Origin: Terriglobales bacterium
GTDB taxonomy: Bacteria > Acidobacteriota > Terriglobia > Terriglobales > Acidobacteriaceae
NCBI GenBank assembly: GCA_030038475.1
Contig: JASHOU010000078.1
Location: forward strand, 1-49,015
DNA length: 49,015 nucleotides
Reading direction: 5' to 3'
Shown: in pieces, positions 1,504 through 18,665 of the stretch
Numbering within the stretch: position 1 is the stretch's first letter
Layout: each line of letters starts with the position of its first letter
Notes under the pieces: generated by a model
Told to the model about the DNA's origin: nothing
Database searches by the model: none
The model's input: the letters and a program-made list of their open reading frames with translations, nothing else
Program-made: the position numbers and the translations under genes

Positions 1504-1510
1504 CTACAGT

Positions 1511-1537
1511 GACCAGTGGTCAGTGGTCAGTGGTCAG
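1511..1537. repeat. 7-nt tandem repeat, rplC-rplD spacer
   Basis: The unit CAGTGGT is repeated three times between GAC and CAG. No reverse-complementary partner arm occurs in this short spacer. It belongs to the spacer-repeat phenomenon seen throughout the operon. Confidence 0.85.
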
Positions 1538-1552
1538 AAAAAGCAAAAGACA

Positions 1553-2284
1553 ATGGCAACTATCGATGTTTACAACTTGAGCGGCGCCAAGGCGGGGACG
1601 CTGGAACTGGCCGACGAAGTTTTCGGCGCGGTCAACGAAGACCTGCTGTGGGAGGCGATCCGGCACTATCGCGCCGGGGCGCGGGCCGGGACGCACGCCA
1701 CCAAGGCGCGCTGGCAGGTTTCGGGATCGGGCAAGAAGCTGTGGAAGCAAAAAGGCACGGGACGGGCGCGCATCGGTTCGATCCGCTCGCCGCTGTGGCG
1801 GCATGGCGGCACGGTGCACGGGCCGCAGCCACGCTCCTATGACTATGCGTTTCCGCGGAAAAAGCTTCTGGGCGCACTGCGCTCGGCGCTGGCGGCGAGA
1901 TTTGCCGACGGCAAGCTGACGGTGGTGAAGGCTTTCGACGTGAAAGAACCGAAGACGAAGCTGTTTCGCGAAGCGCTCGACAAGCTGAAAGTCGAGGGCA
2001 CGACGCTGCTGGTCGACATGGCGTCTTCCGAAAACCGAAACCTCGATCTCAGCTCGCGCAACATCGACGGTCTCGAACTGGTGCGGGCGAACGAGGTGCA
2101 TCCGTATCACCTGATGCGCTACACGCACGTGATCTTCGCCCAGCCAGCGCTCGAGAAGCTACAGGATGCGCTGAAGAAGTCGGCCTCGCGGCGGCAGCAT
2201 GAAACGGAGCCGGGGGAAAATGAAGCGAAGAAGAAACCGGCGCGGCGTGCGCGCAAGGCGAAGGCGAAGACGGAGGTGGCCTAG
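1553..2284 (+). CDS. rplD: 50S ribosomal protein L4
   Basis: The reading frame is open from 1523, but the conserved L4 N-terminus MATIDVYNLSGAKAG begins at ATG 1553; the upstream codons are spacer repeat. The 243-residue protein has the extended-loop signature KLWKQKGTGRARIGSIRSPLW and GGTVHGPQPRSY that lines the exit tunnel. The C-terminus carries about 35 extra charged residues (Glu/Lys/Arg/Ala-rich), which are longer than typical. L4 is also an autoregulator of the S10 operon in enterobacteria; no equivalent leader is visible here. Confidence 0.96.
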   Translation: MATIDVYNLSGAKAGTLELADEVFGAVNEDLLWEAIRHYRAGARAGTHATKARWQVSGSGKKLWKQKGTGRARIGSIRSPLWRHGGTVHGPQPRSYDYAFPRKKLLGALRSALAARFADGKLTVVKAFDVKEPKTKLFREALDKLKVEGTTLLVDMASSENRNLDLSSRNIDGLELVRANEVHPYHLMRYTHVIFAQPALEKLQDALKKSASRRQHETEPGENEAKKKPARRARKAKAKTEVA

Positions 2285-2297
2285 GGCCTAACCAATT

Positions 2298-2591
2298 ATG
2301 AGATCCGCGTATCAGATTATTCGCCGGCCGGTGATCACGGAAAAAGGCCTGGGCATTAAAGAGACGCAGAACACGCTGGTGTTTCAGGTGGCGCCGAAAG
2401 CGACGAAGACCGAGATTCGGGAAGCGGTGCAGACCATCTTCAAGGTGAAGGTTGAGTCGGTGCGCACTGCGAATTATCCGGGAAAAGAGCGGCGGCGGGG
2501 AAAGTTTACCGGCTACCGTCCGGATTGGAAGAAGGCGTACGTGCGCCTGAAAAGCGGCGAGAAGATGCCGGAGTACGCGCAGAATCTTTAA
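2298..2591 (+). CDS. rplW: 50S ribosomal protein L23
   Basis: The 97-residue protein has typical L23 features: IIRRPVITEKG near the start, NTLVFQVAPKATKTEIREAV, and the loop RRRGKFTGYRPDWKKAYV. L23 sits at the tunnel exit and is the docking site of trigger factor and SRP. The spacer to rplD is only 13 nt, one of the few without a repeat. A perfect 10-bp hairpin and a one-armed AGCTAAG repeat lie between its stop and rplB. Confidence 0.96.
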   Translation: MRSAYQIIRRPVITEKGLGIKETQNTLVFQVAPKATKTEIREAVQTIFKVKVESVRTANYPGKERRRGKFTGYRPDWKKAYVRLKSGEKMPEYAQNL

Positions 2592-2649
2592 TAGGACAAG
2601 CGGCTTAAGGCCGTTGCTCAAGCGAATAGCAGGGAGGCCTTGCGGCAGC

Positions 2650-2678
2650 GCGATTCGGCGCCAAACGGGCCGAATCGC
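2650..2678. promoter_or_regulatory. Perfect 10-bp hairpin upstream of rplB
   Basis: GCGATTCGGC at 2650-2659 pairs perfectly with GCCGAATCGC at 2669-2678 across a 9-nt loop. It has no following T tract, so it is not a simple intrinsic terminator. A role as mRNA-processing or protein-binding hairpin is inference. Confidence 0.6.
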
Positions 2679-2695
2679 TTGGTGAAAAAGAGAAG

Positions 2696-2720
2696 AGCTA
2701 GAAGCTAACAGCTAAGGGCT
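2696..2720. repeat. One-armed AGCTAAG-type repeat before rplB
   Basis: Units AGCTAGA, AGCTAAC, AGCTAAG and GGCT stand in series with a 7-nt period just before the rplB start. Only the right-arm orientation of this family is present. Confidence 0.8.
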
Positions 2721-2725
2721 GATTT

Positions 2726-3556
2726 ATGGCAATTAAGACCTATAGACCGACGACGCAGACGCTGCGCTTTCGCACCACGCTCGTGACCGACGACATCACC
2801 GCGGCCAAGCCGCACAAGCCGCTGGTCGAGGGCAAGATTCGCAGCGGCGGGCGGCGCAACTCGGGCGACGTGACCATGCGCTTCCGCGGCGGCGGCAACA
2901 AGCGCAAGCTGCGCCTGATCGACTTTAAGCGCGACAAGCACGGCATTCCGGCGACGGTGGTGACCATCGAATACGATCCCGGGCGTTCGGCGCGCATTGC
3001 GCTGCTCAGCTATGCCGACGGCGAGAAGCGTTACATTGTGCAGCCCGACGGGCTGAAGGTTGGACAGAAAATTGTGAGTGGGCCGGAGGCGGACATTCTG
3101 GTGGGCAACGCGCTGCCATTGCGCAATATTCCGCCGGGAACGACGATTCACAACGTCGAATTGCGCCCGGGTAAAGGGGCGCAGATGGTGCGCTCGGCGG
3201 GCGGCGCGGCGCAACTGGTGGCGAAAGAAGGCGACTACGGCCTCGTGAAACTGCCTTCGGGTGAGACGCGCAAAGTTCTGCTCGATTGTTTAGCGACAAT
3301 CGGGCAAGTCGGCAACACCGACCACGAGAACGTAACCTGGGGCAAAGCGGGACGCACGCGCTGGGTGGGCAAGCGTCCGCATAACCGCGGCGTTTCGATG
3401 AATCCGGTCGACCATCCGCATGGCGGCGGCGAAGGCAAGACTTCGGGCGGACGGCATCCGGTGACGCCGTGGGGCCAGCCGACGCGAGGCTACAAGACGC
3501 GGAATAACAAGCGCACGGATGCGTTTATTGTGAAAGACCGCAGGCAGAAGGGTTGA
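2726..3556 (+). CDS. rplB: 50S ribosomal protein L2
   Basis: The 276-residue protein has the usual length. The N-terminal OB-like region includes the [20 protein letters not shown] segment, and the C-terminal loop [19 protein letters not shown], with the conserved histidine needed for peptidyl transferase function, is intact. L2 bridges the subunits and supports 23S rRNA domain IV. The ATG at 2726 follows one AGCTAAG-type repeat arm with only a weak purine stretch (AAGGGCTGA). Downstream, the spacer to rpsS carries two different repeat families. Confidence 0.97.
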
Positions 3557-3563
3557 GAGTTAA

Positions 3564-3648
3564 GGTTTCAAAGTTTCAGAGTTTCAAGGTTGCAAGGAAA
3601 AATCAGAAGCCCGGGTTCGATTTGCTGAGAACTGAGAACTGAGAACCG
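3564..3648. repeat. Two one-armed repeat families, rplB-rpsS spacer
   Basis: Positions 3564-3597 hold GTTTCAAA/GTTTCAGA/GTTTCAAG/GTTGCAAG units of 8 nt. Positions 3625-3647 hold CTGAGAA-type units with an 8-nt period (GAACTGAG). Neither has a reverse-complementary partner. Two families coexist in one spacer. Confidence 0.85.
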
Positions 3649-3652
3649 ACTT

Positions 3653-4009
3653 ATGGCACGTTCGACAAAAAAAGGGCCGTTCGTGGATGCGCCTCTGGCG
3701 AGGAAGATCGAAGCCATGAATTCGCGCAACGAGAAAAAGGTGCTGCGCACCTGGTCGCGGCGCTCGACGATTGTTCCGGAGATGGTGGGGCACACGATCG
3801 CGGTGCACAACGGGAAGAAATTCATTCCCGTGTACATCACCGAGAACATGGTGGGGCACAAGCTGGGCGAATTCAGCTTTACCCGCCAGTTCAAAGGGCA
3901 CTCGATGAAGGCGGCGACCGAAGCGGCGGCAAAACCGGCGGGCGTGCCCGGCGGTCCGGGAGCGATTGTGCCGTCAACGCCAGCGGCGCCGGCTGCACCG
4001 AAGGCGTAG
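3653..4009 (+). CDS. rpsS: 30S ribosomal protein S19
   Basis: The 118-residue protein begins [12 protein letters not shown] and keeps the S19 core ([36 protein letters not shown], the basic KGH). S19 with S13 contacts the A-site finger in the 30S head. The conserved part ends near residue 88, and about 28 extra residues rich in Ala, Pro and Gly follow. The usual length is 85-95, so the low-complexity tail is lineage-specific. The region before the ATG lacks a strong Shine-Dalgarno. Confidence 0.96.
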
Positions 4010-4015
4010 AAAACC

Positions 4016-4083
4016 AGCTCTTAGCTGTTAGCTCTTAGCTTTTAGCTGGGAGCCGCGGAGCTAAGGGCTAAAGGCTAAGAGCT
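4016..4083. repeat. Paired inverted short-period repeat (AGCTAAG family), rpsS-rplV
   Basis: The left arm 4016-4047 has TTAGCT-type units (CTTAGCT, GTTAGCT, TTTAGCT) with a 7-nt period. The right arm 4059-4083 has the complementary AGCTAAGG/GCTAAAGG/CTAAGAGCT series. The arms are imperfectly complementary and fill almost the whole spacer, ending 5 nt before the rplV ATG. Confidence 0.9.
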
Positions 4084-4088
4084 GACAC

Positions 4089-4586
4089 ATGGAATTTCGA
4101 GCGGAAGCACGATACATGCGAGTTTCGCCGCAGAAGGCGCGGCTGGTGCTCAACCTGATCAAGGGACGGCGGGTGGAAGAAGCTCGCAACACGCTGGCTT
4201 TCACCAAGAAACGCGTGGCACCAACCGTCGCCAAGCTCTTGCAGTCGGCGATCGACAATGCGAATTTTTTGAGCAACGAAAAAGGGCTGGATGTCGATCT
4301 CGACAACCTGTACGTAAAACATGCGGTAGCGAACGATGGTCCGCGCATGAAGCGGATTCGTCCTGCGCCGATGGGACGCGCCTACCATTATGTGCGGAGG
4401 ATCGCGCATCTCGAGATTGTGCTGGCGGAAAAGAATCGGAATGGAGCGGCGGCTGAGGCCGGCTCGACTCCGGCTGCGGCCGGGAAGCCGGCGAAGGCCG
4501 CGGCTCCGAGACCGAGAGTGAAGGCCAAGGTCAAAGCGCCGACGAAGAAGAAATCGGTGGGCAAGAAAGCGGCGGCAAAGAAGTAG
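4089..4586 (+). CDS. rplV: 50S ribosomal protein L22
   Basis: The first 110 residues are L22: [20 protein letters not shown] near the N-terminus and the tunnel-lining beta-hairpin [18 protein letters not shown]22 lines the narrowest part of the exit tunnel and is a macrolide-resistance site in other bacteria. The remaining 55 residues are an Ala/Lys/Pro-rich tail ending in a run of lysines, making the protein 165 residues against about 110-115 usually. It lies between a paired repeat and a one-armed GTTTCAAG repeat. Confidence 0.95.
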
Positions 4587-4592
4587 AAGAAA

Positions 4593-4618
4593 GGTTTCAA
4601 AGTTTCAAGGTTGCAGAG
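4593..4618. repeat. One-armed GTTTCAAG repeat, rplV-rpsC
   Basis: Three 8-nt units (GTTTCAAA, GTTTCAAG, GTTGCAGA) lie in a 46-nt spacer without a complementary arm. Confidence 0.8.
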
Positions 4619-4632
4619 TCTACGGAGCGCAC

Positions 4633-5313
4633 ATGGGTCAAAAGGTTCATCCATACGGATTCCGGCTCGGCTACACGAAGCCGTGGAAATCGCGCTGGTT
4701 TGTCGAACGGGACTACGACAAGCTGCTGCTCGAGGATGTGAAGCTCAAGGCGGAGCTGAAGGACAAGCTCAAGTCGGCGGGCGTGAGTTCGGTCGAGATC
4801 GAGCGTCCGGGCAACAAGCTGCGCATCATTATTAAGACGGCGCGCCCGGGCATCATTATCGGGCGCAAGGGCGCAGAGATCGACAAGCTGAAGCAGGATC
4901 TGCAGAAGCGGACCTCGCGCGAGGTGCATGTCGATATCCAGGAGGTGCACAAGCCGGAGCTGGATGCGCAACTGGTCTCGGAATCAATTGCGCTGCAACT
5001 GGAAAAGCGCGTCGGCTTCCGGCGGGCGATGCGCAAGGCGGTCGATTCGGCGCTGCGCTTCGGCTGCAAGGGAATCAAGGTTCGCGTGAGCGGGCGGCTC
5101 AACGGCAACGAAATCGCGCGCTCGGAGTGGTATTTGCAGGGGCGCTTGCCGCTGCACACGCTGCGCGCCGACATCGACTTCGGTTTTACCGAGGCGCGCA
5201 CGACGTATGGCGTAATTGGAGTCAAGGTATGGGTGTATAAGGGCGAGATTCTGCCGACGAAGAAACGTGAAGGCACGCCGGCGCGTGAGATCACGACGAC
5301 GGGAGCGTTTTGA
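4633..5313 (+). CDS. rpsC: 30S ribosomal protein S3
   Basis: The 226-residue protein has the [20 protein letters not shown] start, the KH RNA-binding motif [17 protein letters not shown], and the C-terminal domain with [14 protein letters not shown] and [14 protein letters not shown]3 lies at the mRNA entry channel and takes part in helicase activity of the 30S subunit. Length is typical. The ATG at 4633 has a GGAGCGCAC purine run upstream. Confidence 0.97.
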
Positions 5314-5317
5314 GATG

Positions 5318-5379
5318 AGTACCCAGTTGCCAGTACCCAGCAAGAAAGAGCTAAGAGCTAAAGGCTAGAAGCTAAGAGC
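5318..5379. repeat. Direct and AGCTAAG repeats, rpsC-rplP spacer
   Basis: AGTACCCAG occurs twice in 5318-5340. Positions 5349-5379 carry four 7-nt AGCTAAG-type units in right-arm orientation only. No complementary partner is present. Confidence 0.8.
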
Positions 5380-5385
5380 GATTTT

Positions 5386-5799
5386 ATGTTGATGCCGAAA
5401 AAAGTTAAGTACCGCAAGCAGCAGCGCGGGCGCATGACCGGGAAGGCATGGCGCGGCGGAGAGCTGTCGTTTGGGCAGTACGGGCTGAAGGTGCTCGAGC
5501 CGGGCTGGATCACCGACCGCCAGATCGAAGCGAGCCGCGTAGCCATGACGCGTTTTATCAAGCGCGGAGGCAAGATCTGGCTGCGCTTGTTCCCCGACAA
5601 GCCAGTGACGAAGAAACCGGCCGAAACCCGTATGGGCAAAGGCAAAGGTGCGCCCGATCACTGGGTCGCGGTGGTGAAGCCGGGAAAGATTTTGTTCGAG
5701 ATGGAAGGCGTCACGATTACGGACGCGAAAGAGGCGTTGCGGCTGGCGTCGCACAAGCTGCCGCTGCGCACCTCGTTTGTGCAGCGCGAGACGCTCTAG
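5386..5799 (+). CDS. rplP: 50S ribosomal protein L16
   Basis: The 137-residue protein has the expected length and begins [17 protein letters not shown]. The signatures [35 protein letters not shown] and [18 protein letters not shown] are all present. L16 supports the A-site tRNA elbow and is a late assembly protein. ATG 5386 is chosen over ATG 5392 because L16 normally starts MLMP. It is preceded by a one-armed AGCTAAG repeat, and no strong Shine-Dalgarno is visible. Confidence 0.96.
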
Positions 5800-5874
5800 A
5801 GATTGCAGGAGTTAGAAGTCAGATTGCAGAAAAGGTTGATGCGTTTACGCAGCGTCTGAGCCACACAGCTTTTA

Positions 5875-5900
5875 CTGACAACTGAGAACTGAGAGCTGAC
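5875..5900. repeat. GAACTGAG repeat, rplP-rpmC spacer
   Basis: Units CTGACAA, CTGAGAA, CTGAGAG and CTGAC stand in series with an 8-nt period immediately before the rpmC start. This is the same family as 3625-3647. Confidence 0.75.
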
Positions 5901-5903
5901 TTA

Positions 5904-6116
5904 ATGAAAGCGGAAAAGATTCGCAACTTAACCGACGTTGAACTGAAGCATCAGGAGCGGGATTTGGCGGACCAGCTCTTCAAGCTGAAGTTCCAAATGA
6001 ATATGGGGCAGACCGAGAGCCTGAAAAAGATTCGCGGGCTGCGCCGCGACATCGCGCGGGTGAAGACGGTGCTGCGCGAGCAGGAACTGGCCGCCCAAAA
6101 AACGGAGAAGAAATGA
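5904..6116 (+). CDS. rpmC: 50S ribosomal protein L29
   Basis: The 70-residue, mostly helical protein has [21 protein letters not shown]-type L29 content and the conserved [15 protein letters not shown] and [19 protein letters not shown] segments. L29 packs beside L23 at the tunnel exit. Its stop overlaps the rpsQ start in ATGA (6113-6116), so translation of the two is probably coupled. It is one of only a few tightly packed pairs in this otherwise loosely spaced operon. Confidence 0.95.
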
Positions 6117-6436
6117 TGGCGGAAACCGCCCAGGCAGAAAGAAAGCCGCGCCACAAGGAACTGATCGGCACGGTCGTTTCCAACAAGATGCAGAAGACGA
6201 TCGTGGTCGAAGTGACGCGCAAGAAGGCGCATCCCATGTATGCGCGGGTGATCTCGATTCGCAAGAAGTTTTACGCGCACGACGAGAAAAACGAGGCGCA
6301 TGCCGGAGACGTGGTGAAGATCGAAGAGTCGCGGCCGCTTTCGAAGCTGAAGCGCTGGACGCTGAAAGAGATCGTGCGCAAGACCGTGCTGGTGCCCGAG
6401 GTCGATGCCGACGCCGGCACGGGCATCGGGCAGTAG
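6113..6436 (+). CDS. rpsQ: 30S ribosomal protein S17
   Basis: The 107-residue protein has the S17 OB-fold core [18 protein letters not shown], followed by [13 protein letters not shown] and [17 protein letters not shown]17 is a primary 16S rRNA binder. ATG 6113 overlaps the rpmC stop; ATG 6116 is an equally possible start one codon later. The C-terminus is about 20 residues longer than in E. coli and ends in a Gly/Asp-rich tail. Confidence 0.95.
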
Positions 6437-6456
6437 GGAACGGGAAGGAGACGAAC

Positions 6457-6828
6457 ATGGCCGTAATGATGAGAACCATGCTCGAAGTCGCCGACAACTC
6501 CGGCGCGCGCAAGCTGCAGATGATTCTGCCGCTCGGCGGCTCGACCGGTTTGCGCGCCAAGCTGGGCGACGTGATCACGGCGAGCGTAAAGGAAGCGGCG
6601 CCCGACGGCCAGGTGCAGAAGGGCAAAGTGGTGAAGGCGGTGATCGTGCGCACGCGCAAGGAGCATCGGCGGCGCGACGGGACATATATCCGCTTCGATC
6701 AGAATGCGGCTGTGCTGATCAACGAAGCCGGGGAGCCGGTGGGCACGCGCGTGTTTGGTCCGGTGGCACGCGAACTGCGCGAGAAGAAATTTTTGAAGAT
6801 TGTGTCGCTGGCGCCGGAAGTACTGTAG
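6457..6828 (+). CDS. rplN: 50S ribosomal protein L14
   Basis: The 123-residue protein matches L14 in length and motifs: [16 protein letters not shown], the basic [19 protein letters not shown] segment and [18 protein letters not shown]14 contacts 16S helix 14 and is the docking site of silencing factor RsfS. The ATG 6457 has a good GGAAGGAGA ribosome-binding site, one of the clearest in the operon. The following spacer holds a paired GTTTCAAG repeat. Confidence 0.97.
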
Positions 6829-6834
6829 AGGCAG

Positions 6835-6948
6835 GGTTTCAAGGTCGCAAAGTTCCAAGGTTTCAAGGGCCTTGAAATGCGGGACTGCGAAATCTTTCGT
6901 GAAATCGATGAGGACTTTGAAACTCTGAAACCTTGAAACTTAGAAACC
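6835..6948. repeat. Paired inverted short-period repeat (GTTTCAAG family), rplN-rplX
   Basis: The left arm 6835-6868 (GTTTCAAG, GTCGCAAA, GTTCCAAG, GTTTCAAG) and right arm 6914-6948 (CTTTGAAAC, TCTGAAAC, CTTGAAAC, TTAGAAAC) have an 8-nt period and are mutually complementary. The 45-nt loop between them also contains a CTTGAAAT unit. The right arm ends 11 nt before rplX. Confidence 0.9.
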
Positions 6949-7304: not shown

Positions 7305-7307
7305 ATT

Positions 7308-7390
7308 TTGTGATTGGGAATTTGGTAATTGGGTAATTTGAAAACCGCAAGGCCCTTAAATTACACAATTACCCGATTACAAAATTACAA
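7308..7390. repeat. Paired inverted short-period repeat (AATTGGGT family), rplX-rplE
   Basis: The left arm 7308-7339 consists of TTGGGAAT/TTGGTAAT/TTGGGTAAT units. The right arm 7357-7390 consists of AATTACACAATTACCCGATTAC-like complementary units. The period is about 8 nt. The right arm ends directly at the rplE start. Confidence 0.9.
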
Positions 7391-7391
7391 A

Positions 7392-8117: not shown

Positions 8118-8181
8118 AGGATCGAGCGATCGGGCCATCTGGCATCGGGTGATCGCAAGGCCGAACCCAGAGGTTTTCGGT

Positions 8182-8445: not shown

Positions 8446-8572
8446 GTCGCTGGTCGTTGGTCGTTCGCAATCACGAGTGGCGAAAACGGCGTGGGTTCAG
8501 CGCAAAGTTGTAGAAAGGCCGACCGTCGGGAATTGTTTGCTAACGACTAGCGACCAACGACTGACGACCGAC
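8446..8572. repeat. Paired inverted repeat (GGTCGTT family), rpsN-rpsH
   Basis: The left arm 8446-8467 has TGGTCGT/TGGTCGT/TCG units with a 7-nt period. The right arm 8542-8572 has ACGACTAGCGACCAACGACTG-like complementary units. The 196-nt spacer also contains a CCGCGGAACGCGG palindrome at about 8596-8608 and an AGGAGA ribosome-binding site for rpsH. Confidence 0.8.
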
Positions 8573-9036: not shown

Positions 9037-9043
9037 AGAAACA

Positions 9044-9189
9044 GTTGCTAGCTACTAGCTTTTGGCTACTAGCTAGTGATTTTCGAGACGGAATATCGGC
9101 CGCAGATGCTCGCCGAGGTTCCCGAACAGGAAGCAGGAAGATCAAATCAGTTCTTAGCCAGAAGCTAGGGGCTAGAAGCTAGAAGCTAC
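9044..9189. repeat. Paired inverted short-period repeat (AGCTAG family), rpsH-rplF
   Basis: The left arm 9044-9078 has CTAGCTACTAGCTTTTGGCT-type units. The right arm 9156-9189 has AGCCAGAAGCTAGGGGCTAG-type units with a 7-nt period. The right arm ends one base before the rplF ATG, so the ribosome-binding region lies inside the repeat. Confidence 0.9.
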
Positions 9190-9731: not shown

Positions 9732-9827
9732 ATTTGGTAATTGGGTAATTTTGAAATTGGGTAATCTGAGATCCGGAGGACATGGGCTTCTCGATTACCA
9801 AATTACTCAATTACCCGATTACGAAAT
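9732..9827. repeat. Paired inverted short-period repeat (AATTGGGT family), rplF-rplR
   Basis: The left arm 9732-9766 has TTGGTAA/TTGGGTAA/TTGGGTAA units. The right arm 9792-9827 has GATTACCAAATTACTCAATT-type complementary units. An AGGA motif lies between the right arm and the rplR ATG. Confidence 0.9.
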
Positions 9828-10214: not shown

Positions 10215-10302
10215 AATTTGTAATTGGTGATTTGTAATGGGTAATTTCAAAAGCCCAGGGTTTTGGATTTCCAATTACAAATTACCAATTGCAAATTAGA
10301 AA
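10215..10302. repeat. Paired inverted short-period repeat (TAATTGG family), rplR-rpsE
   Basis: The left arm 10215-10247 has TTTGTAAT/TGGTGATT/TGTAATGGGTAAT units. The right arm 10269-10302 has CCAATTAC/AAATTACC/AATTGC units. The arms are complementary over most of their length and are separated by a 21-nt loop. Confidence 0.9.
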
Positions 10303-10823: not shown

Positions 10824-10828
10824 GAGAA

Positions 10829-10960
10829 GGTTTCAGAGTTTCAAGGTTTCAAAGTTTTCGGGTTGTAAAGTTGCAAAGAAGGAGAGTTTCAAAGCTCAGG
10901 TATTTGTCAGAGGTTAAGTCACGGTCTCTTTGAAACCTTGAGACTCTGAAACTTTGAAAC
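10829..10960. repeat. Paired inverted short-period repeat (GTTTCAAG family), rpsE-rpmD
   Basis: The left arm 10829-10878 has GTTTCAGA/GTTTCAAG/GTTTCAAA/GTTTTCGG/GTTGTAAA/GTTGCAAAG units, six periods long. The right arm 10928-10960 has CTTTGAAACCTTGAGACTCT-type units. This is the longest left arm in the operon. Confidence 0.9.
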
Positions 10961-11173: not shown

Positions 11174-11264
11174 TGTTTCAATGTTGCAAGGTTTCAAAGT
11201 TTCAAGGAGAAGATGTTCCCTGATTTGTTTTCTGAAGCCCTGAAACCATGAAACTTTGAAACCT
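11174..11264. repeat. Paired inverted short-period repeat (GTTTCAAG family), rpmD-rplO
   Basis: The left arm 11174-11207 has GTTTCAAT/GTTGCAAG/GTTTCAAA/GTTTCAAGG units. The right arm 11239-11264 has CCTGAAACCATGAAACTTTG-type units. The loop is 31 nt. The right arm ends 10 nt before rplO. Confidence 0.9.
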
Positions 11265-13224: not shown

Positions 13225-13989
13225 ATGGCCAGGCAAACGGCGAACGAGACTGCTCGAACTGCAAATATCGGGCCGGTGGTTCTTATCGGACCTCCGGGTT
13301 CGGGTAAGGGCACACAGGCTAAACAAATTGTCTGCCGCTACGGTATTCCGCAGATCTCGACTGGCGATCTGTTGCGGGATCATGTAGGGCGCGGCACCGA
13401 ACTTGGTCTTGAAGCCAAGGCGATCATGGCCCGGGGCGAGCTGGTGCCGGACGAATTGATGTATGGGATGGTGACGAATCGTCTTCATAAGCCGGATTGC
13501 CGCCGCGGATTTGTGCTGGATGGCTTTCCCCGCACGGCCGCTCAGGCGGGATGGCTCAGCGCCTTGCTGGAGAAAGAGCTCTTTGACAACAACGCTGACA
13601 ATAAATCTGATAATGGATCGGACAACCGATCGGGTAAATCGAAGCCGTGCGGGCCGGTTGTGATCCAGTTGATGGTGGACTATAATCAGCTATTGCAACG
13701 GCTTACCGGACGGCGCTCGTGCCCCACCTGTGGCAGGCTCTATAACATTCACTTTCAGCCACCTAAGGTCGATGAGTTGTGCGATCTGGACGGATCGAAG
13801 CTGGTGATCCGCGACGACGATCGCGAGGAGGTAATTTACGGACGCCTCGCCGCCTACGAGAAGCAGACCAGCCCAGTGGTGGAATACTACCGCGCGCAGC
13901 AGCGGCTGGTGGCGGTGAATGCGGATCGTCCGGTGGAAGAGGTTACGGGGCAGGTTTTCGGTGCGATTGACAGTCATCGGGGATGTTAG
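13225..13989 (+). CDS. adk: Adenylate kinase with internal DNxS repeat insertion
   Basis: The enzyme converts ATP and AMP to two ADP. Walker A is GPPGSGKGT at residues 22-30, the AMP site STGDLLR follows, and FVLDGFPRT lies at 97-104. The LID has zinc ligands C166, C169, C186 and D189. At residues 121-140, between the helix after FPRT and the core strand, the protein carries DN-N-A/DNKS/DNGS/DNRS tetrapeptide repeats, making it 254 residues against about 215 usual. The frame is open upstream to 13042 inside secY, but the homologous part begins after ATG 13225. The 133-nt secY-adk gap has no clear repeat pair. Confidence 0.95.
   Translation: MARQTANETARTANIGPVVLIGPPGSGKGTQAKQIVCRYGIPQISTGDLLRDHVGRGTELGLEAKAIMARGELVPDELMYGMVTNRLHKPDCRRGFVLDGFPRTAAQAGWLSALLEKELFDNNADNKSDNGSDNRSGKSKPCGPVVIQLMVDYNQLLQRLTGRRSCPTCGRLYNIHFQPPKVDELCDLDGSKLVIRDDDREEVIYGRLAAYEKQTSPVVEYYRAQQRLVAVNADRPVEEVTGQVFGAIDSHRGC
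13585..13641 (+). repeat. 12-nt tandem repeat inside adk
   Basis: Four diverged 12-nt units (GACAACAACGCT, GACAATAAATCT, GATAATGGATCG, GACAACCGATCG) and a partial unit encode DNNA-DNKS-DNGS-DNRS-GKS. Codon third positions vary, so the repeat is old or under amino acid constraint. Confidence 0.9.
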
Positions 13990-14057
13990 TTAGTCGTTAG
14001 CCAAGGCATTCGCGTTCGAACTGGAATTGCAAACGACTAAGAATTAAAGGACTAGCG

Positions 14058-14129
14058 CGTTAGAGTTGGCAGAGTTAAGCGTCGAAGTTAGAGTCAACGA
14101 AGTTCGAGTCGACGATTTTAGAGTTAACG
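14058..14129. repeat. AGAGTTA-type short repeats before map
   Basis: Degenerate units of GTTAGAGTT, AGAGTTAAG, GAAGTTAGAGTC, GAAGTTCGAGTC and AGAGTTAACG fill the spacer up to the map ATG. Further upstream TTAGTCGTTAG (about 13986-14000) is complementary to CGACTAA (about 14034-14040), so a small inverted pair also exists. Confidence 0.7.
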
Positions 14130-14897
14130 ATGAGTCGTGGAGAAGACCGGATCATACGCAAGTCGCCGCAGGAAATTGAAAAAATGCGGCGCAGCGGAAA
14201 GATCGTTCGCCAGGTTTTGAATCATTTGAAGGCGTTGGTGGCGCCGGGCGTAACGACCATGGATCTGGAAAAAGCCGCCGAGAAGATGATTTCGGATCTA
14301 GGAGCGACTCCGGCCTTCAAGGGTTATTACGGTTATCCGTGCGTACTCTGCACTTCGATCAATGAAGAGATCGTGCACGGCATCCCGTCGGAGAAGCGGA
14401 CGCTGAAGGCGGGAGACATCGTTTCGATCGATTGCGGCGTGGTTTGCGATGGATATTATGGCGATGCCGCGGTGACCGTGCCGGTGGGCGAGTCAGTGAC
14501 GCCGGAGTTGAAAAAACTGCTCGAAGTGACCGAGGCTTCGCTGTACAAAGGCATCGAGCAGGTAAAGATCGGCAACACGATCGGGCATGTGGGGTCGGCG
14601 ATCCAGAAGCATGTGGAGGCGAACGGCTTCAGCGTGGTGCGGGAATTTGTCGGGCACGGAATCGGCACCAAGCTGCACGAAGCGCCGCAGATTCCGAATT
14701 TCGGCAAGAAGGGCCAGGGCGCGGAGTTGACCGAAGGCATGGTGCTGGCGATTGAGCCGATGGTGAACTCGGGCGGTCCGGAAACAAAAGTTTTGGGCGA
14801 CAAGTGGACTGCGGTGACGCTCGACGGCAGTTACAGCGCACACTTCGAGCATTGCGTAGCGGTAACGCGCAAAGGTCCGGAGATTTTGACGCAGTAG
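14130..14897 (+). CDS. map: Methionine aminopeptidase type I
   Basis: The 255-residue cytosolic enzyme removes N-terminal methionine from nascent proteins. The five metal ligands are present: D101, D112, H176, E209, E240. H83 of the substrate pocket (IVHGIP) is also present. No N-terminal zinc finger or SH3 extension is seen, so it is the minimal class Ia form. The frame starts at ATG 14130 directly after a repeat-rich spacer with no clear Shine-Dalgarno. The adk-map-infA order is the normal spc/alpha junction. Confidence 0.96.
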   Translation: MSRGEDRIIRKSPQEIEKMRRSGKIVRQVLNHLKALVAPGVTTMDLEKAAEKMISDLGATPAFKGYYGYPCVLCTSINEEIVHGIPSEKRTLKAGDIVSIDCGVVCDGYYGDAAVTVPVGESVTPELKKLLEVTEASLYKGIEQVKIGNTIGHVGSAIQKHVEANGFSVVREFVGHGIGTKLHEAPQIPNFGKKGQGAELTEGMVLAIEPMVNSGGPETKVLGDKWTAVTLDGSYSAHFEHCVAVTRKGPEILTQ

Positions 14898-14978
14898 GAG
14901 CTTTCAGCTATCGGCTCTCAGCTTCAGTTAAAGCGCCGAGTTGAAAGTTGTAACTGAGAGCTGAAGGCTGAGAACTGC
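14898..14978. repeat. Paired inverted short-period repeat (AGCTCTC family), map to infA
   Basis: The left arm 14898-14930 has GAGCTTTCAGCTATCGGCTC-type units. The right arm 14951-14978 has AACTGAGAGCTGAAGGCTGA-type units, complementary with a 7-8 nt period. It is followed directly by the duplicated infA start. Confidence 0.85.
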
Positions 14979-14990
14979 TTTTGGAGGTCG

Positions 14991-15092
14991 ATGAGTAAAG
15001 AAGACGCGATTGAAGTTGAGGCGTCTAGCGGGCGTGAGCGAAGCGGGAGCCCGCTGCCGAAATCCCGAGGGGAGCGAGGGATCTCTGGTTAG
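14991..15092 (+). pseudogene. Partial duplicate of the infA start: 33-codon ORF
   Basis: ATG 14991 has a GGAGG site 3 nt upstream. The first 26 nt are identical to the start of infA at 15111, giving the residues MSKEDAIEV, then the frame diverges into an insert and stops at TAG 15090-15092, 18 nt before the infA ATG. With the upstream TTTTGGAGG included, the duplicated block is 14979-15016 versus 15099-15136 (35 of 38 identical). It may be translated as a leader peptide, or it may be a fossil of the insertion; both are inference. Confidence 0.8.
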
Positions 15093-15098
15093 AGAAAT
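15017..15098. repeat. REP-like palindromic insert upstream of infA
   Basis: The 82-nt segment lies between the two copies of the infA start. It contains AGCGGGC (15027-15033) pairing with GCCCGCT (15049-15055), and ATCCC (15062-15066) pairing with GGGAT (15078-15082). The GAGCGAAGCGGGAG core resembles extragenic palindromes of the TGAGCGAAGCGAAGG type found at 27064. It has no coding potential for a transposase. Confidence 0.75.
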
Positions 15099-15110
15099 TT
15101 TTGGAGGGTA

Positions 15111-15329
15111 ATGAGTAAAGAAGACGCGATTGAAGTGATGGCGACGGTTCTCGAGCCGCTGCCCAACGCCATGTTCAAGGTGGAGCTGGAAAACAAACAC
15201 CAGGTGCTGGCGCACGTTTCCGGGAAAATGCGGAAAAACTTCATCAGAATATTGCCGGGAGACAAAGTCGCAGTTGAACTTTCTCCTTATGACCTGAATC
15301 GCGGCCGGATTGTTTATCGATATAAATGA
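15111..15329 (+). CDS. infA: Translation initiation factor IF-1
   Basis: The 72-residue protein is a full-length S1/OB-fold IF-1: [19 protein letters not shown] at the start, [22 protein letters not shown]-type strands, and the end [20 protein letters not shown]. It binds the 30S A site and supports IF-2 and IF-3. A strong GGAGGG lies 3 nt before ATG 15111. The upstream region holds a second copy of its own ribosome-binding site and start, which makes its control region unusual. Confidence 0.97.
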
Positions 15330-15331
15330 GC

Positions 15332-15385
15332 GATTAGCTGTTAGCTTTTGGCTATTAGCTAAAGGCCAAGAGCTAAAGGCTGGGA
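15332..15385. repeat. Paired inverted short-period repeat (TTAGCT family), infA-rpmJ
   Basis: The left arm 15332-15360 (ATTAGCT, GTTAGCT, TTTGGCT, ATTAGCT) and right arm 15361-15385 (AAAGGCCAAGAGCTAAAGGC) are adjacent with almost no loop. The period is 7 nt. Confidence 0.88.
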
Positions 15386-15390
15386 GAGTT

Positions 15391-15504
15391 ATGAAAGTCA
15401 GGGCTTCAGTAAAAAAGATTTGCGACAAGTGCAAGGTCATCCACCGCAAGGGAGTGGTGCGGGTGATCTGCGAGAACTCGAAACACAAGCAGCGCCAGGG
15501 ATAA
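15391..15504 (+). CDS. rpmJ: 50S ribosomal protein L36, zinc-binding
   Basis: The 37-residue protein [20 protein letters not shown]... is a complete C+ type L36 with zinc ligands C11, C14, C27 and H32 and the end [11 protein letters not shown] 15391 has GGGAGAG 4 nt upstream. It is the smallest ribosomal protein gene and marks the border between the spc and alpha groups. Inverted AGCTAAA/AGCTCGA repeats flank it on both sides. Confidence 0.97.
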
Positions 15505-15506
15505 CA

Positions 15507-15578
15507 AGCTACGCGCTTCGAGCCGCGAGCTACGAGCGAACTCAGACTGCTCGAAGCTCAAAGCTCATAGCTCGAAGC
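15507..15578. repeat. Paired inverted short-period repeat (AGCTCGA family), rpmJ-rpsM
   Basis: The left arm 15507-15539 has GCTACGC/GCTTCGA/GCCGCGA/GCTACGA units. The right arm 15549-15578 has GCTCGAA/GCTCAAA/GCTCATA/GCTCGAA units. Both have a 7-nt period and parts are complementary (GCTTCGAG with CTCGAAGC). Confidence 0.85.
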
Positions 15579-15614
15579 AACCGGCAAAGAGGCTGTCAGG
15601 AAGGACCAAGAATC

Positions 15615-16001
15615 ATGGCACGTATTGCAGGCGTTGATCTTCCGCGAAACAAACACGCGAATATCGCGCTCACTTATATCTACGGCATCGGCCATTCGCG
15701 ATCGGCCCGCATTCTGGACGCGGCGAATGTAGACCCGATGAAAAAAGTGCAGGACCTGGGCGAGGATGAGGTCAACCGCATCCGCCAGGTGATCGAGGCC
15801 GAAGGCGCGGTGGAAGGCGATCTGCGCAAAGACGTTTCGATGAACATCAAACGCCTCATCGAAATCGGCTCCTATCGCGGGTTCCGGCATCGCCGCAACC
15901 TGCCGGTTCGCGGCCAGCGCACGCACACCAACGCCCGGACGCGGAAAGGTCCGCGCAAAGGAACCGTCGCGCAGAAGAAGAAGTCGACGGCAAAGACATA
16001 A
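15615..16001 (+). CDS. rpsM: 30S ribosomal protein S13
   Basis: The 128-residue protein begins [21 protein letters not shown] and contains the helix-two-turn-helix body and the basic C-terminal [20 protein letters not shown] that reaches the P site. S13 forms the B1 bridges to the large subunit. The open frame extends upstream to 15420 through rpmJ and the spacer, but ATG 15615 is the S13 start, with AAGGA 8-10 nt before it. It is the first gene of the alpha group. Confidence 0.97.
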
Positions 16002-16004
16002 CCA

Positions 16005-16079
16005 GGTTTCAAGGTGGCAGAGTTTCAAGGTTTCAATGAAAAAACCTTGGACCTTCGAAACCTTGAAACTTTGAAACCT
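16005..16079. repeat. Paired inverted short-period repeat (GTTTCAAG family), rpsM-rpsK
   Basis: The left arm 16005-16036 has GTTTCAAG/GTGGCAGA/GTTTCAAG/GTTTCAA units. The right arm 16045-16079 has CCTTGGACCTTCGAAACCTT-type units followed by GAAACTTTGAAACC. The loop is 8 nt, so a long quasi-palindrome is possible. Confidence 0.9.
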
Positions 16080-16088
16080 GAGGTTTTT

Positions 16089-16520
16089 ATGGCAAAACCA
16101 GCAGCAGCAGGCGGCGCCGCGGCGCCGGAGAAAAAAGGCAAGAAGAAGACTTTCAAAAAGAAAGAACGCAAGCACGTTCCGCATGGATTGGTCCACGTGC
16201 AGGCGTCTTTCAACAACACAATCGTAACCATCACCGATCTCTCCGGTAATGTGCTGGCCTGGAAGAGTTCGGGGTCGCTCGGCTTCCGCGGGTCACGTAA
16301 AGGGACTCCGTTCGCCGCGCAGCAGGCGGCGGCCAATGCCGCAAGCATGGCGCGCGATCACGGCGTACGCAGCGTGGACGTTCGCGTGAGCGGTCCGGGA
16401 TCGGGGCGCGAATCGGCGGTACGCGCGCTGGCCTCGGCGGGAATCGAAGTCCGGTCGATCAAAGACACGACGCCGATTCCGCATAACGGGTGCAGGCCGC
16501 CAAAGCGTCGACGTGTGTAA
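16089..16520 (+). CDS. rpsK: 30S ribosomal protein S11
   Basis: The 143-residue protein has an N-terminal Ala/Lys-rich extension (about 25 residues) and the S11 core [37 protein letters not shown], and [19 protein letters not shown]11 lies on the 30S platform near the Shine-Dalgarno helix. The ATG 16089 follows GAGG 5-8 nt upstream. It is longer than the usual 128-130 because of the N-terminal basic segment. Confidence 0.96.
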
Positions 16521-16541
16521 GTTCGCAGCGGCTTAGTCGTA

Positions 16542-16625
16542 AGGTTTCAAGGTTTCATAGTTGCAAGGTTTCAAGGGAGCCTCGACGGCTGTCTTTGAAA
16601 CTCTGAAACCTTGAAACTTTGAAAC
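16542..16625. repeat. Paired inverted short-period repeat (GTTTCAAG family), rpsK-rpsD
   Basis: The left arm 16542-16576 (GTTTCAAG/GTTTCATA/GTTGCAAG/GTTTCAAG) and right arm 16593-16625 (CTTTGAAACTCTGAAACCTT then GAAACTTTGAAAC) have an 8-nt period and a 16-nt loop. About 70 nt of non-repeat sequence follows before rpsD. Confidence 0.9.
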
Positions 16626-16694
16626 ATTCGAGATTCCGTCCGGGAAGAAGCGTGAAGCCAGACGCGTAAACCGGTCATCTAAAAGGAGAACAAC

Positions 16695-17324
16695 TTGGCA
16701 CGTTATACCGATGCAGTGTGTCGTCTTTGTCGCCGGGAGGGCATCAAGCTCTTCCTTAAAGGCACGAAGTGCTTCAGCGACAAATGTCCGATTGAGAAAC
16801 GTAACTTCGCTCCTGGGCAACACGGGAAAGATAAAAAGACCAAGGTCGTCGGCTACGGTCTGCAGTTGCGCGAAAAACAAAAAGCCAAACGCATCTACTT
16901 CACCCAGGAAGGCCAATTCCGCAATTACTTCGAGAACGCGGTCCGGTTCAAGGGTGTGACCGGCGCGAAGTTGCTCGAGCAACTGGAACGGCGGCTCGAC
17001 AACGTAGTCTTTCGGATGGGCTTTGGCATCTCCCGCCGGCAGGCGCGCCAGTTGGTTCGTCACGGCCACGTGCAGGTGAATGGAAAGAAAGTCAACATTC
17101 CCTCGTACGAAGTGAACATCGGCGAAGAGATTGCGATTCGCGAGGGCAGCCGCAAGGTGCCGATTCTCGAAACGGCGAGGGACTTTGCCAGTCATCAGCC
17201 GGTTCCGTTGTGGCTGGAGATCGATCGCGAGAACTACAAAGGCCGGGTGATTGCGCTGCCAAAACGAGAAGATATTCAGCTGCCGGTGAACGAGCAACTG
17301 ATTGTTGAGCTGTATAGCAAGTAA
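16695..17324 (+). CDS. rpsD: 30S ribosomal protein S4, zinc-binding form
   Basis: The 209-residue protein carries the C+ type N-terminal zinc motif C9-x2-C12-x13-C26-x4-C31 and the S4 RNA-binding domain ([39 protein letters not shown]). S4 nucleates 30S assembly and acts in accuracy and antitermination. The start is TTG 16695 with AAAAGGAGAACAAC upstream, a strong ribosome-binding site; no ATG is near. It stands in the normal alpha-operon place before rpoA. Confidence 0.96.
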
Positions 17325-17334
17325 GAAGTTAGGA

Positions 17335-17440
17335 GATTGAGTAATAGTGAAATCGGCTAATTGGGTAATTTAAAAACCAATTCTGAACCGCCTTTCAATT
17401 ACTCAATTACTCAATTACTAAATTACACAATTACTCAATC
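17335..17440. repeat. Paired inverted short-period repeat (AATTGGGT family), rpsD-rpoA
   Basis: The left arm 17335-17371 has GATTGAGTAATAGTGAAATC-type units ending TTGGGTAATTT. The right arm 17395-17440 has five CAATTACT/AAATTACA units of 8-9 nt. The right arm is the most regular of this family. About 100 nt without repeat follow before rpoA. Confidence 0.9.
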
Positions 17441-17542
17441 TGGTTTTTTGCTTCGCGCCAGATCAGCCTTTGCCGACACTGACCTCAGTTGGACCACTGA
17501 GCGAGCCGGTAATGAGCCACATGGCCGAAAGGAGAAACACAA

Positions 17543-18574
17543 ATGCTTTGGAGAGGTTTTCAAAAACCGAAGCGGCTGGCGAGCGACGCCAGTTCGCTGA
17601 CCGATAAATACGGGATGTTCTGGGCGCAGCCGTTCGAGCGCGGATTTGGCACGACCATCGGCAACGCGCTGCGGCGGGTGCTGCTGAGCTCGATCGAAGG
17701 TGCTGCCGTAACCGCGGTGAAGATCGAAGGCGTGCTGCATGAGTTCCAGTCGATTCCGGGCGTGGTTGAGGATGCGACCGACATCATCCTGAATTTGAAG
17801 CAGGTTCCCTTCAAACTCGCGGGCGATGGGCCGAAGGCGATTTATCTGCGTGCCGAGGAGCCGGGAGTGGTGACGAGCGGCATGATCGAAGCCGATGGCG
17901 ACGTGGAAGTGCTCGACAAAGAGATCTATATCGCGACCGTCAGCGAAGCCGGCAAACTGGAAATGGAAATGCGCCTGAAGCGCGGCCGTGGCTACGTTTC
18001 CGCGGACCGTAATTTCGAAGAGGATCTGGGCATTGGGTTTATTCCCATCGATTCGGTGCACACGCCGGTGCGCAAGTGTAACTACACGGTCGAACCAGCG
18101 CGTCTGGGGCAGATCACCGATTATGACAAGCTGACGGTCGAGGTCTGGACGAATGGCTCGATCACTCCGGGCGATGCGCTGGGTCTGGCGGCGAAGCTGG
18201 TGAAAGATCACATGAACATCTTCATCAACTTCGAAGAAGAGATCGAAACCGCTTCGTCGAGCGAAGAGCGCCGGCCCGAGATCAAGAACGAGAACCTGAA
18301 CCGTTCGGTCGAGGAACTCGAGCTTTCGGTGCGCAGCTACAACTGCCTGAAGAACGCGAACATTCAGACGATTGGCGAGCTGGTGCAGAAGACCGAAGCC
18401 GAGATGTTGAAGACGAAAAATTTCGGCCGCAAGTCGCTGAACGAAATCAAGGAGATTCTTTCCTCGATGGGTTTGAGCCTGGGGATGAAGATCGACGAGC
18501 ACGGCAATGCCGTGCCCGGGCCGACTTCGAACCAGATACTGCCGGCTTCGGCCTACGGCGACAGCGATCTATAA
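17543..18574 (+). CDS. rpoA: RNA polymerase subunit alpha
   Basis: The 343-residue protein has the N-terminal dimerisation domain ([37 protein letters not shown]) and, after an acidic linker around residues 230-255, the C-terminal helix-hairpin-helix domain ([32 protein letters not shown]-type run here [18 protein letters not shown]). It assembles the core RNA polymerase and contacts UP elements and activators. AAAGGAGAAACACAA before ATG 17543 is a strong ribosome-binding site. Length is typical. Confidence 0.97.
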
Positions 18575-18578
18575 GAAC

Positions 18579-18655
18579 GAGTGGTTAGTGGTTGGTGATT
18601 CGCGGCCAGCAAACCGCGATTCAGGCCAATCACTAACCACTAATCACGAGCCACT
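18579..18655. repeat. Paired inverted short-period repeat (GGTTAGTG family), rpoA-rplQ
   Basis: The left arm 18579-18600 (GAGTGGTTAGTGGTTGGTGA) pairs with right arm 18625-18655 (AATCACTAACCACTAATCAC). A further 6-bp hairpin TCGCGG/CCGCGA lies in the loop. Repeat arms end 11 nt before rplQ. Confidence 0.9.
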
Positions 18656-18665
18656 GAGGTTTTCC

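Follow-up and report, generated by a model that had tools for sequence, protein, structure and literature searches.

Arrays of short degenerate words repeated in tandem have been reported from several bacterial groups, and the present work concerns such arrays in the spacers of the ribosomal superoperon of a Terriglobales bacterium (Acidobacteriota), contained in a 49,015-nucleotide (nt) stretch of contig JASHOU010000078.1 that, as a whole, is referred to below as the window. One of the described systems is that of the Xanthomonas GGGAATC or (GGGANTN)n heptamer arrays, which were studied for quadruplexes (Rehm et al. 2015, PMC4692102). According to the available text of that article, these arrays resemble ours in that the 7-nt units are degenerate, some positions being conserved and others variable, and that most arrays contain four of them. 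The arrays are dispersed and intergenic; they are found mostly between co-directional genes and near the upstream gene (on average 28 nt there), form inverted pairs (70 and 75 in two genomes), and the prominent arrays are at different genes in the two species. However, there is one G-rich family, the only one studied per genome, whereas several families occur in a single operon here, and the same text makes no mention of a concentration in ribosomal operons, of several families per operon, or of family replacement at orthologous spacers.

Another example is that of the paired "global regulator" sites of Geobacter metallireducens (PMC2700814), namely, GTTGCTYN in four, TCTCCGTS[Y] in three, and MTYCTGA in five copies, with a variable distance between partners in the first two classes. 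Several unit classes per genome, a period of 7 to 8 nt, and pairs on opposite strands are common to both systems. Unlike here, 24, 21, and 8 pairs were found and were interpreted as protein-binding sites; in the accessible part of that study they are not described as an operon-spacer layout, and the cross-species comparison extends only to G. sulfurreducens, in which they are absent. TAACTGA repeats of Beggiatoaceae, Cyanobacteria, and Bacteroidetes (MacGregor 2015, PMC4679880) are, as far as the text at hand goes, also heptamers with a patchy distribution that occur in ribosomal-protein operons, among other places, and in one Beggiatoaceae genome they mostly have one orientation just upstream of start codons, which corresponds to that of the right arms here; however, they are based on one word and form 169 direct-repeat sets but only one indirect set. 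In P6b of the Nostoc tRNA-Leu intron (PMC3488679, part of the text), degenerate heptamers base-pair into a hairpin and vary in copy number, but they do so within an intron and at a single site. Finally, repetitive extragenic palindromic (REP) and other Y1-transposase-linked repeats are likewise short intergenic palindromes with many copies, and Acidobacteria possess related Y1-type transposases (PMC3733652, the part available); a conserved palindrome is shared by the REP copies, whereas the unit families differ here and the arrays are not always accompanied by a Y1 transposase. These scattered reports on Xanthomonas, Geobacter, Beggiatoaceae, and Nostoc are joined by units with a core and variable positions, few units per array, and inverted pairs. 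The kind of array is hence already known, and the statement of the first-pass annotation of the window, made from its sequence, that no description of such an architecture was known has to be narrowed, given that paired arrays of 7- to 8-nt units are in print (PMC4692102 and PMC2700814, as far as available). For the concentration in ribosomal operons, the presence of several families per operon, and the replacement of families at orthologous spacers, searches of openly licensed PMC papers yielded no description. A regular structure that is held at fixed places in a highly conserved operon while its sequence is replaced is invisible to homology-based methods.

We tentatively propose, aware that the explanation may well prove wrong, that the superoperon displays a dispersed, multi-family heptamer-array system which gives predicted intercistronic RNA stems that are kept by operons. 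In an array, a word of 7 or 8 nt, whose core is conserved while other positions vary, is repeated about four times. The arrays lie mainly between co-directional genes, are densest in ribosomal and some other housekeeping operons, and often form inverted pairs, in which a T-rich array 0 to 7 nt past the stop codon is followed by an A-rich array of the same family ahead of the leader of the next gene. The transcribed pair could fold into an intercistronic stem of about 27 to 31 base pairs. The function retained would most likely be exerted at the RNA level, by a double-stranded segment that separates cistrons and serves, irrespective of its sequence, as a barrier or a processing site; cleavage of the RNase III type and the separation of neighbouring translation initiations are candidate roles, which would be useful but not essential. 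The writing and homogenizing of arrays within a genome may be due to a DNA-level activity that some lineages have and others lack. The RNA level is favoured because the placement and order of the arrays and the matching of their families suggest that the transcript is what counts; the words would be free to change because a user of double-stranded RNA that is indifferent to sequence, or simple spacing, would suffice. An RNase III gene was found in all five genomes tested, including the array-free genome discussed below.

Arrays and word families in the superoperon spacers

The window opens with the S10-spc-alpha ribosomal superoperon (rpsJ to rplQ, positions 341-19172), for which gene names were assigned from protein sequence and the usual gene order. 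The analysis covered 26 spacers of 40-300 nt; spacers containing N or outside this range were dropped. Inverted repeats with a score of >24, the 99.5th percentile of shuffled spacers, were detected in 16 of the 26 spacers, as compared to 12 of 5200 shuffled copies. Paired arms had been noticed in 15 spacers by the first-pass annotation, and 14 of these exceed the threshold, with infA-rpmJ lying on it (Table 1). The other two are rpmJ-rpsM, which was absent from that list, and rpsJ-rplC, the sixteenth, which is without arrays and carries a GC-rich palindrome of another kind. The same GC-rich palindromic element, of the GTGTGGTAGCGGGGC...CACCACAT type, flanks rpsJ at 196-250 and 669-724 and represents a repeat type without 7-nt units.

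Arrays with a period of 7 or 8 nt are present in 23 of the 26 spacers, and in seven of the spacers, namely, rplC-rplD, rplW-rplB, rplB-rpsS, rplV-rpsC, rpsC-rplP, rplP-rpmC, and rplE-rpsN, there is one arm only or the arms belong to two families. The period of 7 to 8 nt noted earlier was confirmed by autocorrelation, with z values in the window of 16.7 at lag 7 and 10.3 at lag 8; at lag 7, z was 64 for 343 congener spacers and 65 for 1072 spacers of other loci. The comparison of folding energies with shuffled controls, proposed as a check, showed that the spacers fold more strongly than the controls: the RNA minimum free energy (MFE) z relative to dinucleotide shuffles is < -2 in 18 and < -4 in 11 of the 26 spacers, and the medians are -3.0 in the window, -2.9 in congeners, and -1.8 at other loci. 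A search of the window against Rfam at gathering scores gave no match.

The wider set comprised 95 superoperon loci, that is, the window and 94 others after removal of five duplicate loci, and provided 1441 orthologous spacers; congeners and orthologous spacers have common ancestry, so that counts across them are not independent. These spacers contained 876 arrays, as compared to 1 in shuffled copies, and coding sequence is nearly array-free (8 arrays in 703 kb at a stricter threshold). Being tandem, degenerate, dispersed, and almost exclusively intergenic, the arrays of 7-nt units are of the type known from Xanthomonas and cyanobacteria, the tandem heptamers of the latter being named STRR.

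Clustering of the arrays from the 95 loci resulted in 42 clusters, a few of which are large, and about eight word families are shared by different spacers and genomes. The AGCTTCT family has 203 arrays in 52 genomes and at 24 sites, the CAGTTCT family 163 arrays (49 genomes, 22 sites), and the CAGCTCT family 117 arrays (34 genomes, 23 sites); smaller families are GTCGTTG (55 arrays), CAGTGGT (52), GTTTCAA (51), an AATT type (43), and GGTCTCA (27). Families are also reused within the window, with GTTTCAA arrays in seven spacers and AGCTTCT-type arrays in five. Words recur elsewhere in the genome to which the window belongs (4.46 Mb in 216 contigs, 98.4% complete), where GTTTCAARGTTTCAA was found 22 times in forward and 18 times in reverse orientation, as compared to 2 and 1 matches of the reversed pattern. 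The claim that the units differ between spacers is hence no more than half correct, and the contrast initially drawn with repeat families that share a sequence does not hold, since several shared word families exist.

A unit has a conserved core and variable positions, with the variation at fixed positions of the unit. The entropy of the best conserved position is 0.06-0.34 bit in 7 of 9 groups (0.60 for GTTTCAA and 0.72 for AATTTGT), and that of the most variable position is 1.46-1.97 bits in the 9 groups, some unevenness being favoured because the groups were built from shared words. The most common array length is 30-33 nt, slightly more than four units (346 of 876), and 89 of the 876 arrays measure at least 46 nt; about four units is thus the usual array size, as in Xanthomonas and cyanobacterial-type arrays. 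Uneven unit entropies and a usual size of about four units would also fit paired binding sites, in which the word is the site of a DNA- or RNA-binding protein and the inverted pair a dimeric arrangement; the binders suggested in print, in the parts of these papers available, are IHF/HU-like proteins for Geobacter and S1, Csp, or Csr-type proteins for Beggiatoaceae. We consider this explanation improbable: each of the roughly eight families in one operon would require its own protein, unless an undemanding one served them all, one family can take the place of another at a given site, and there is no hairpin in the 82 convergent spacers described below.

Orientation and relatedness of the two arms

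Among the 240 spacers with exactly two arrays, a T-rich array is followed by an A-rich one in 179 and the order is reversed in 5; in the remaining 56, both arrays are A-rich (28), both are T-rich (9), or the case is undecided. Of the 161 single arrays in the right half of a spacer 93% are A-rich, but only 49% of the 229 single arrays in the left half are T-rich, so that the orientation rule holds firmly for pairs and for right arms, and not for single left arrays. In the 227 left-right pairs, the left array starts at a median of 4 nt past the stop codon (0-7 nt for the 10-90% range), and the right array ends at a median of 13 nt ahead of the start codon. The two arms belong to the same family in 185 of these 227 pairs, whereas a null in which right arms were shuffled within genomes gave a mean of 88.5 and a maximum of 108.

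In the origin proposed earlier, the tandem units arise by local slippage and are copied, by template switching, to the other arm of that site. It is well established that template switching can produce hairpins (PMC8794818, as far as its text is available), and the inverted arms of one family agree with this origin. The arms, however, are fitted to each other no further than their shared family: within family and genome, similarity is 0.838 for partners and 0.847 for non-partners, with 39 wins and 70 losses in 116 hairpins. A corresponding result was obtained for the genome of the window, in which arms of the same hairpin and cross-paired arms have similarities of 0.657 and 0.661 for GTTTCAA (11 hairpins) and of 0.647 and 0.636 for GTCG (5 hairpins), and the partner arms of CAGT (4 hairpins) and ATCGGG (3) are likewise no closer than others. 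The opposite trend, in favour of copying, was seen for AGCT (0.55 versus 0.364, 5 hairpins) and AATT (0.632 versus 0.553, 16 hairpins), perhaps due to a mixing of sub-families within each set. Furthermore, in 25 of 34 homologous element pairs, which are non-independent, the difference in spacer length is, to within 1 nt, a multiple of 7, as compared to about 15 expected, which is some sign of unit gain or loss. Words are nevertheless common to unrelated sites and genomes, the length mode is sharp and without a falling tail, and the variation is at fixed unit positions. Local slippage alone does not explain the arrays, and its combination with template switching appears very unlikely to us.

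Same-family arms from different sites have a similarity of 0.839 within a genome and 0.792 between genomes. In same-family hairpins, G-U and A-C mismatches are in a ratio of 202:200, as compared to 193:229 in cross-paired controls (p 0.21); over all hairpins the ratio is 655:565 (p 0.011), a 1.16-fold excess. Since partners are no closer than the family and there is no clear wobble signal, pairing follows from the shared family, and not from arm-to-arm copying or close RNA fitting.

The loops have a mean similarity score of 13.1 between same-family hairpins of one genome, 10.7 between different families, and 10.3 after shuffling. Same-family loops are mostly unrelated, and a copying of whole hairpins was rejected, with one clear exception: the rpsH-rplF and rpsK-rpsD hairpins of locus L135 have almost the same loop, which is the strongest indication of whole-element copying between sites. 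This loop, as well as the dispersed, intergenic, and palindromic nature of the repeats and the three Y1_Tnp genes of the genome of the window, would agree with a REP or miniature inverted-repeat transposable element (MITE) family spread by a Y1 (RAYT-type) transposase. The array-free congener genome (G022) has one weak Y1_Tnp match, and the other congeners tested have 2-15, except G012 with none, which points in the same direction. However, there is no palindrome common to the copies (a REP family tag was not searched for), and same-family loops are only slightly more similar than those of different families. As regards the fixed terminal inverted repeats of MITEs, the words vary between copies. 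The genome without match, G012 (83% complete), is an array-rich congener, and no Y1_Tnp match was obtained in 8 of 9 array-rich genomes tested of the distant genus g37, for which reason a Y1 transposase was discarded as the general writer. A spread of this kind is, in our view, scarcely to be expected.

An inner AAACC/GGTTT stem beside the loop is strongly enriched (left, 18 of 198 versus 2.8 expected; right, 24 versus 3.7), but it occurs in few loops and is hence not a general feature. TTTT within 14 nt past the right arm was found for 15% of the 227 hairpins and in 2% of the matched stretches of array-free spacers, and TTTT in the last 30 nt in 11% of hairpin spacers and 7% of array-free ones. 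Intrinsic terminators were rejected because this T-run rate after the stems is low.

Placement in the genome, turnover and loss

Placement was studied in 1.21 of the 4.46 Mb of the genome, window included, using a home-made gene caller that missed some short genes and starts. Many pieces had been picked for contigs with the GTTTCAA pattern (36, 89, 104, 137, 150, 204, 212) or for a searched gene, which may inflate the counts; the rpoB and atp contigs are outside the orientation tallies, and three small or overlapping loci were skipped. Among co-directional spacers, 34 of 361 have hairpins with 7/8-nt arms, as compared to 0 of 82 among convergent and 2 of 68 among divergent ones (Fisher p 4.8e-4); ribosomal spacers called by the same method have hairpins in 12 of 22 cases (p 5.9e-7 versus co-directional). 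Convergent spacers are shorter than co-directional ones (mean 99 versus 138 nt). For spacers of 60-150 nt, the counts are 27/189 co-directional versus 0/50 convergent (p 0.002). Single arrays do occur in convergent spacers (8/82, 1 in shuffled), mostly pointing away from a stop codon. Inspection by eye revealed AATT hairpins upstream of rpoB, in each of the three spacers that measure 40-300 nt, and arrays in all three spacers of the atp operon. Genes flanking hairpins have a higher codon adaptation (0.568 for 33 spacers versus 0.528 for 212, p 1.4e-5, rpoB, nuo, and atp pieces included), as compared to 0.657 for ribosomal genes; the difference was also seen without these fetched pieces (0.564 for 29 versus 0.529 for 203, p 2.4e-4) and in contigs picked by number alone (0.555 for 11 versus 0.531 for 73, p 0.02).

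Among the congeners, arrays were found in 250 of 470 site-genome combinations, with a very uneven occupancy of sites (chi2 165, df 28). The best-filled sites are rpsM-rpsK (15/16, with several families) and rplP-rpmC (15/17), and rplD-rplW (0/14) and rpmC-rpsQ (0/17), both very short gaps, are empty. The comparison of orthologous spacers thus showed that the same spacers stay filled in congeners while different congeners have different families at the filled sites, and the earlier observation that layout and period are constant while words change extends to congeners and other loci. Same-site, same-side arrays of different genomes have a similarity of 0.287 within the genus (background 0.107) and 0.102 at other loci (background 0.084); the latter value, being near background, indicates that word identity is nearly lost while the layout persists. 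At rpsE-rpmD, the two genes adjoin tightly in 5 of 19 congeners (gap of -1 to 3 nt) and are 53-127 nt apart in the other 14, with arrays detected in 10 of the 14. At rpsS-rplV, locus L005 retains just the last right-arm unit and the tail of the L131 version, which suggests that its arrays were lost by deletion.

The arrays were lost in one congener, G022 (locus L140; 95% complete). Its superoperon has arrays in 0 of 25 spacers, and its whole genome contains one match to a CAGTT array pattern, as compared to 19-113 matches (both strands) in 11 genomes of the genus, including that of the window (control 0 throughout). Arrays are thus dispensable. By eye, L140 spacers have stretches that resemble decayed array remnants, as well as other short repeats such as AGTGATCGCGAAAT in rpsS-rplV.

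This loss is among several observations that weigh against stems kept by operons. The L140 spacers are of similar length to those of the other genus members (median 96 and 95 nt) but fold weakly (median MFE z -1.22 versus -3.04), and 13 array-free loci elsewhere, including that of Terriglobus albidus (arrays in 0 of 21 spacers), have a median length of 90 nt and a median z of -0.93, showing that a stem is not required. The locus of Terriglobus roseus is array-poor, with arrays in 1 of 21 spacers. Relatives without repeats, regarded in the first-pass annotation as evidence against a function, therefore exist in the form of one congener and several Terriglobales loci. Across 297 genomes of the phylum, the AGCT array pattern is patchy, as it is common in some families and missing from others, and it varies even within genus g37 (0 to 106, both strands together); in some of the 297 genomes, the reversed control is equally frequent. 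In the 0.50 Mb of contigs picked by number alone, the hairpin counts are 11/139 for co-directional, 0/23 for convergent, and 1/15 for divergent spacers (p 0.47); these contigs lean in the same direction but are too few to prove the co-directional bias. The codon-bias link may reflect only operon membership. To these points can be added the single left arrays, the arms that match no better than their family, and the missing wobble excess in same-family hairpins. The idea that the hairpins are kept because they insulate, stabilize, or couple adjacent cistrons is supported in part, namely, by a placement that leans to the operon level.

A neutral or selfish writer stays a strong rival because the loss is clean, array-free relatives exist, and a wobble signal is missing. 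A DNA-level activity would lay and homogenize arrays wherever tolerated, and operon spacers would merely tolerate hairpins that have no function. Such writing agrees with a genome-wide on/off state, with the decayed look of the L140 remnants, with the similar spacer length of array-free loci, with core-plus-variable units that are homogeneous within genomes, with wobble pairs that are no more frequent than in the control, and with the outcome for the number-picked contigs. It does not predict that hairpins are absent from convergent spacers that do contain single arrays, that they are densest in the ribosomal operon, or that the family sharing of arms is far above the null. We consider it a real possibility, if a somewhat doubtful one.

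The intercistronic stems that we favour would likewise need a writer. It is conceivable, though unlikely, that a lineage-specific on/off DNA-writing activity lays about four degenerate 7- to 8-nt words at gene borders with a polarity, and that operons keep the products as interchangeable RNA stems. The T-rich array would then lead away from the upstream gene and the A-rich array towards the next start, and both arms would be independent draws from one family, as if each side were extended by the same templated or self-templating synthesis. Among candidate writers, a reverse transcriptase was rejected because RVT_1 gave no match at E 0.001 in the genome of the window. A search for the hairpin nuclease SbcD gave no match above cut-off in 11 genomes tested of this genus, the best sub-cut-off score being 40.5 bits in G022 and at most 27.3 in the others; its absence was nevertheless discarded as a permissive condition, since SbcD is found in 14 of 16 g37 genomes tested, AGCT-rich or AGCT-poor alike. 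Congeners with dense arrays next to one line that lost them permit a gene-by-gene comparison for the writer, and the ends of ribosomal mRNA can be used to address function. If such a writing activity exists, the array-free congener would be a natural knock-out for the gene responsible.

Features of the individual spacers

The arrays of the window are compiled in Table 1.

Table 1. Array-bearing spacers of the ribosomal superoperon, with positions in the window
Spacer	Positions	Strand	Arrays	Word or family	Period (nt)	MFE z
rplC-rplD	1507..1537	+	single array, no partner	CAGTGGT family	7	
rplW-rplB	2696..2720	+	right-type (A-rich) array only	AGCT family		
rplB-rpsS	3562..3649	+	mixed pair: left 3562-3597, right 3625-3649	left GTTTCAA, right CAGTTCT-type		
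rpsS-rplV	4015..4084	+	paired arms 4015-4040 / 4059-4084	TTAGCTN	7	-6.4
rplV-rpsC	4591..4615	+	left array only	GTTTCAA		
rpsC-rplP	5346..5379	+	right-type array only	AGCT		
rplP-rpmC	5874..5899	+	right-type array only	GAACTGA		
rplN-rplX	6835..6948	+	paired arms 6835-6872 / 6911-6948	GTTTCAAG	8	
rplX-rplE	7307..7391	+	paired arms 7307-7339 / 7358-7391	AATTGGGT	8	
rplE-rpsN	8120..8143	+	left array, paired partner not found	ATCGGG	8	
rpsN-rpsH	8446..8572	+	arrays 8446-8465, 8540-8572, then conserved rpsH leader	GTCGTTG	7	
rpsH-rplF	9043..9180	+	paired arms 9043-9082 / 9144-9180	AGCT family	7	
rplF-rplR	9732..9827	+	paired arms 9732-9771 / 9789-9827	AATTGGGT	8	-6.2
rplR-rpsE	10215..10297	+	paired arms 10215-10255 / 10258-10297	AATTTGT	7	-6.2
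rpsE-rpmD	10827..10955	+	paired arms 10827-10854 / 10928-10955	GTTTCAAG	8	
rpmD-rplO	11175..11262	+	paired arms 11175-11204 / 11233-11262	GTTTCAAG	8	
map-infA	14899..14976	+	paired arms 14899-14926 / 14949-14976	CAGCTCT family		
infA-rpmJ	15334..15381	+	pair, borderline score 24	TTAGCTN		-3.1
rpmJ-rpsM	15507..15578	+	arrays 15508-15537 and 15549-15578	GAGCTNC		
rpsM-rpsK	16003..16080	+	paired arms; longest ungapped pair 16003-16036 / 16047-16080	GTTTCAAG		
rpsK-rpsD	16537..16631	+	paired arms 16537-16581 / 16587-16631	GTTTCAAG	8	
rpsD-rpoA	17334..17441	+	paired arms 17334-17370 / 17405-17441	AATT family	8	
rpoA-rplQ	18580..18641	+	paired arms 18580-18605 / 18614-18641	GTGGTTA	7	-6.5

Conserved stretches ahead of rpsD, rpsH, and rpoA sit between the right arm and the start codon. 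The pre-rpsD leader (16632-16694; 59 aligned sequences) has a consensus of about CGGGA-cGAAggG...CccGTAAACCG, and its outer bases seem, by eye, to covary (CCGG/CCGG, TCGG/CCGA, CCAGG/CTGG); it may be an S4 autoregulatory RNA that includes a pseudoknot. Nested structure was almost absent from this leader according to RNAalifold, and Rfam gave no gathering match to it. The pre-rpsH leader (8573-8637; 78 aligned sequences) has the consensus CaGGTTCt-Cc...gGAGCGAACGGG and an RNAalifold stem of -15.8 kcal/mol, and is possibly an S8 control element. In the pre-rpoA stretch (17450-17542; 57 aligned sequences), CCAGATCAGCC...GAGCCACATGGCCGA is conserved in part of the loci, and an automatic alignment of this stretch gave no consensus fold. 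Further upstream in the window, the first 33 nt of infA are duplicated 120 nt upstream (14991-15023 / 15111-15143; 30 of 33 positions identical), with the repeat-like GAGCGAAGCGGGAGCCCGC between the two copies.

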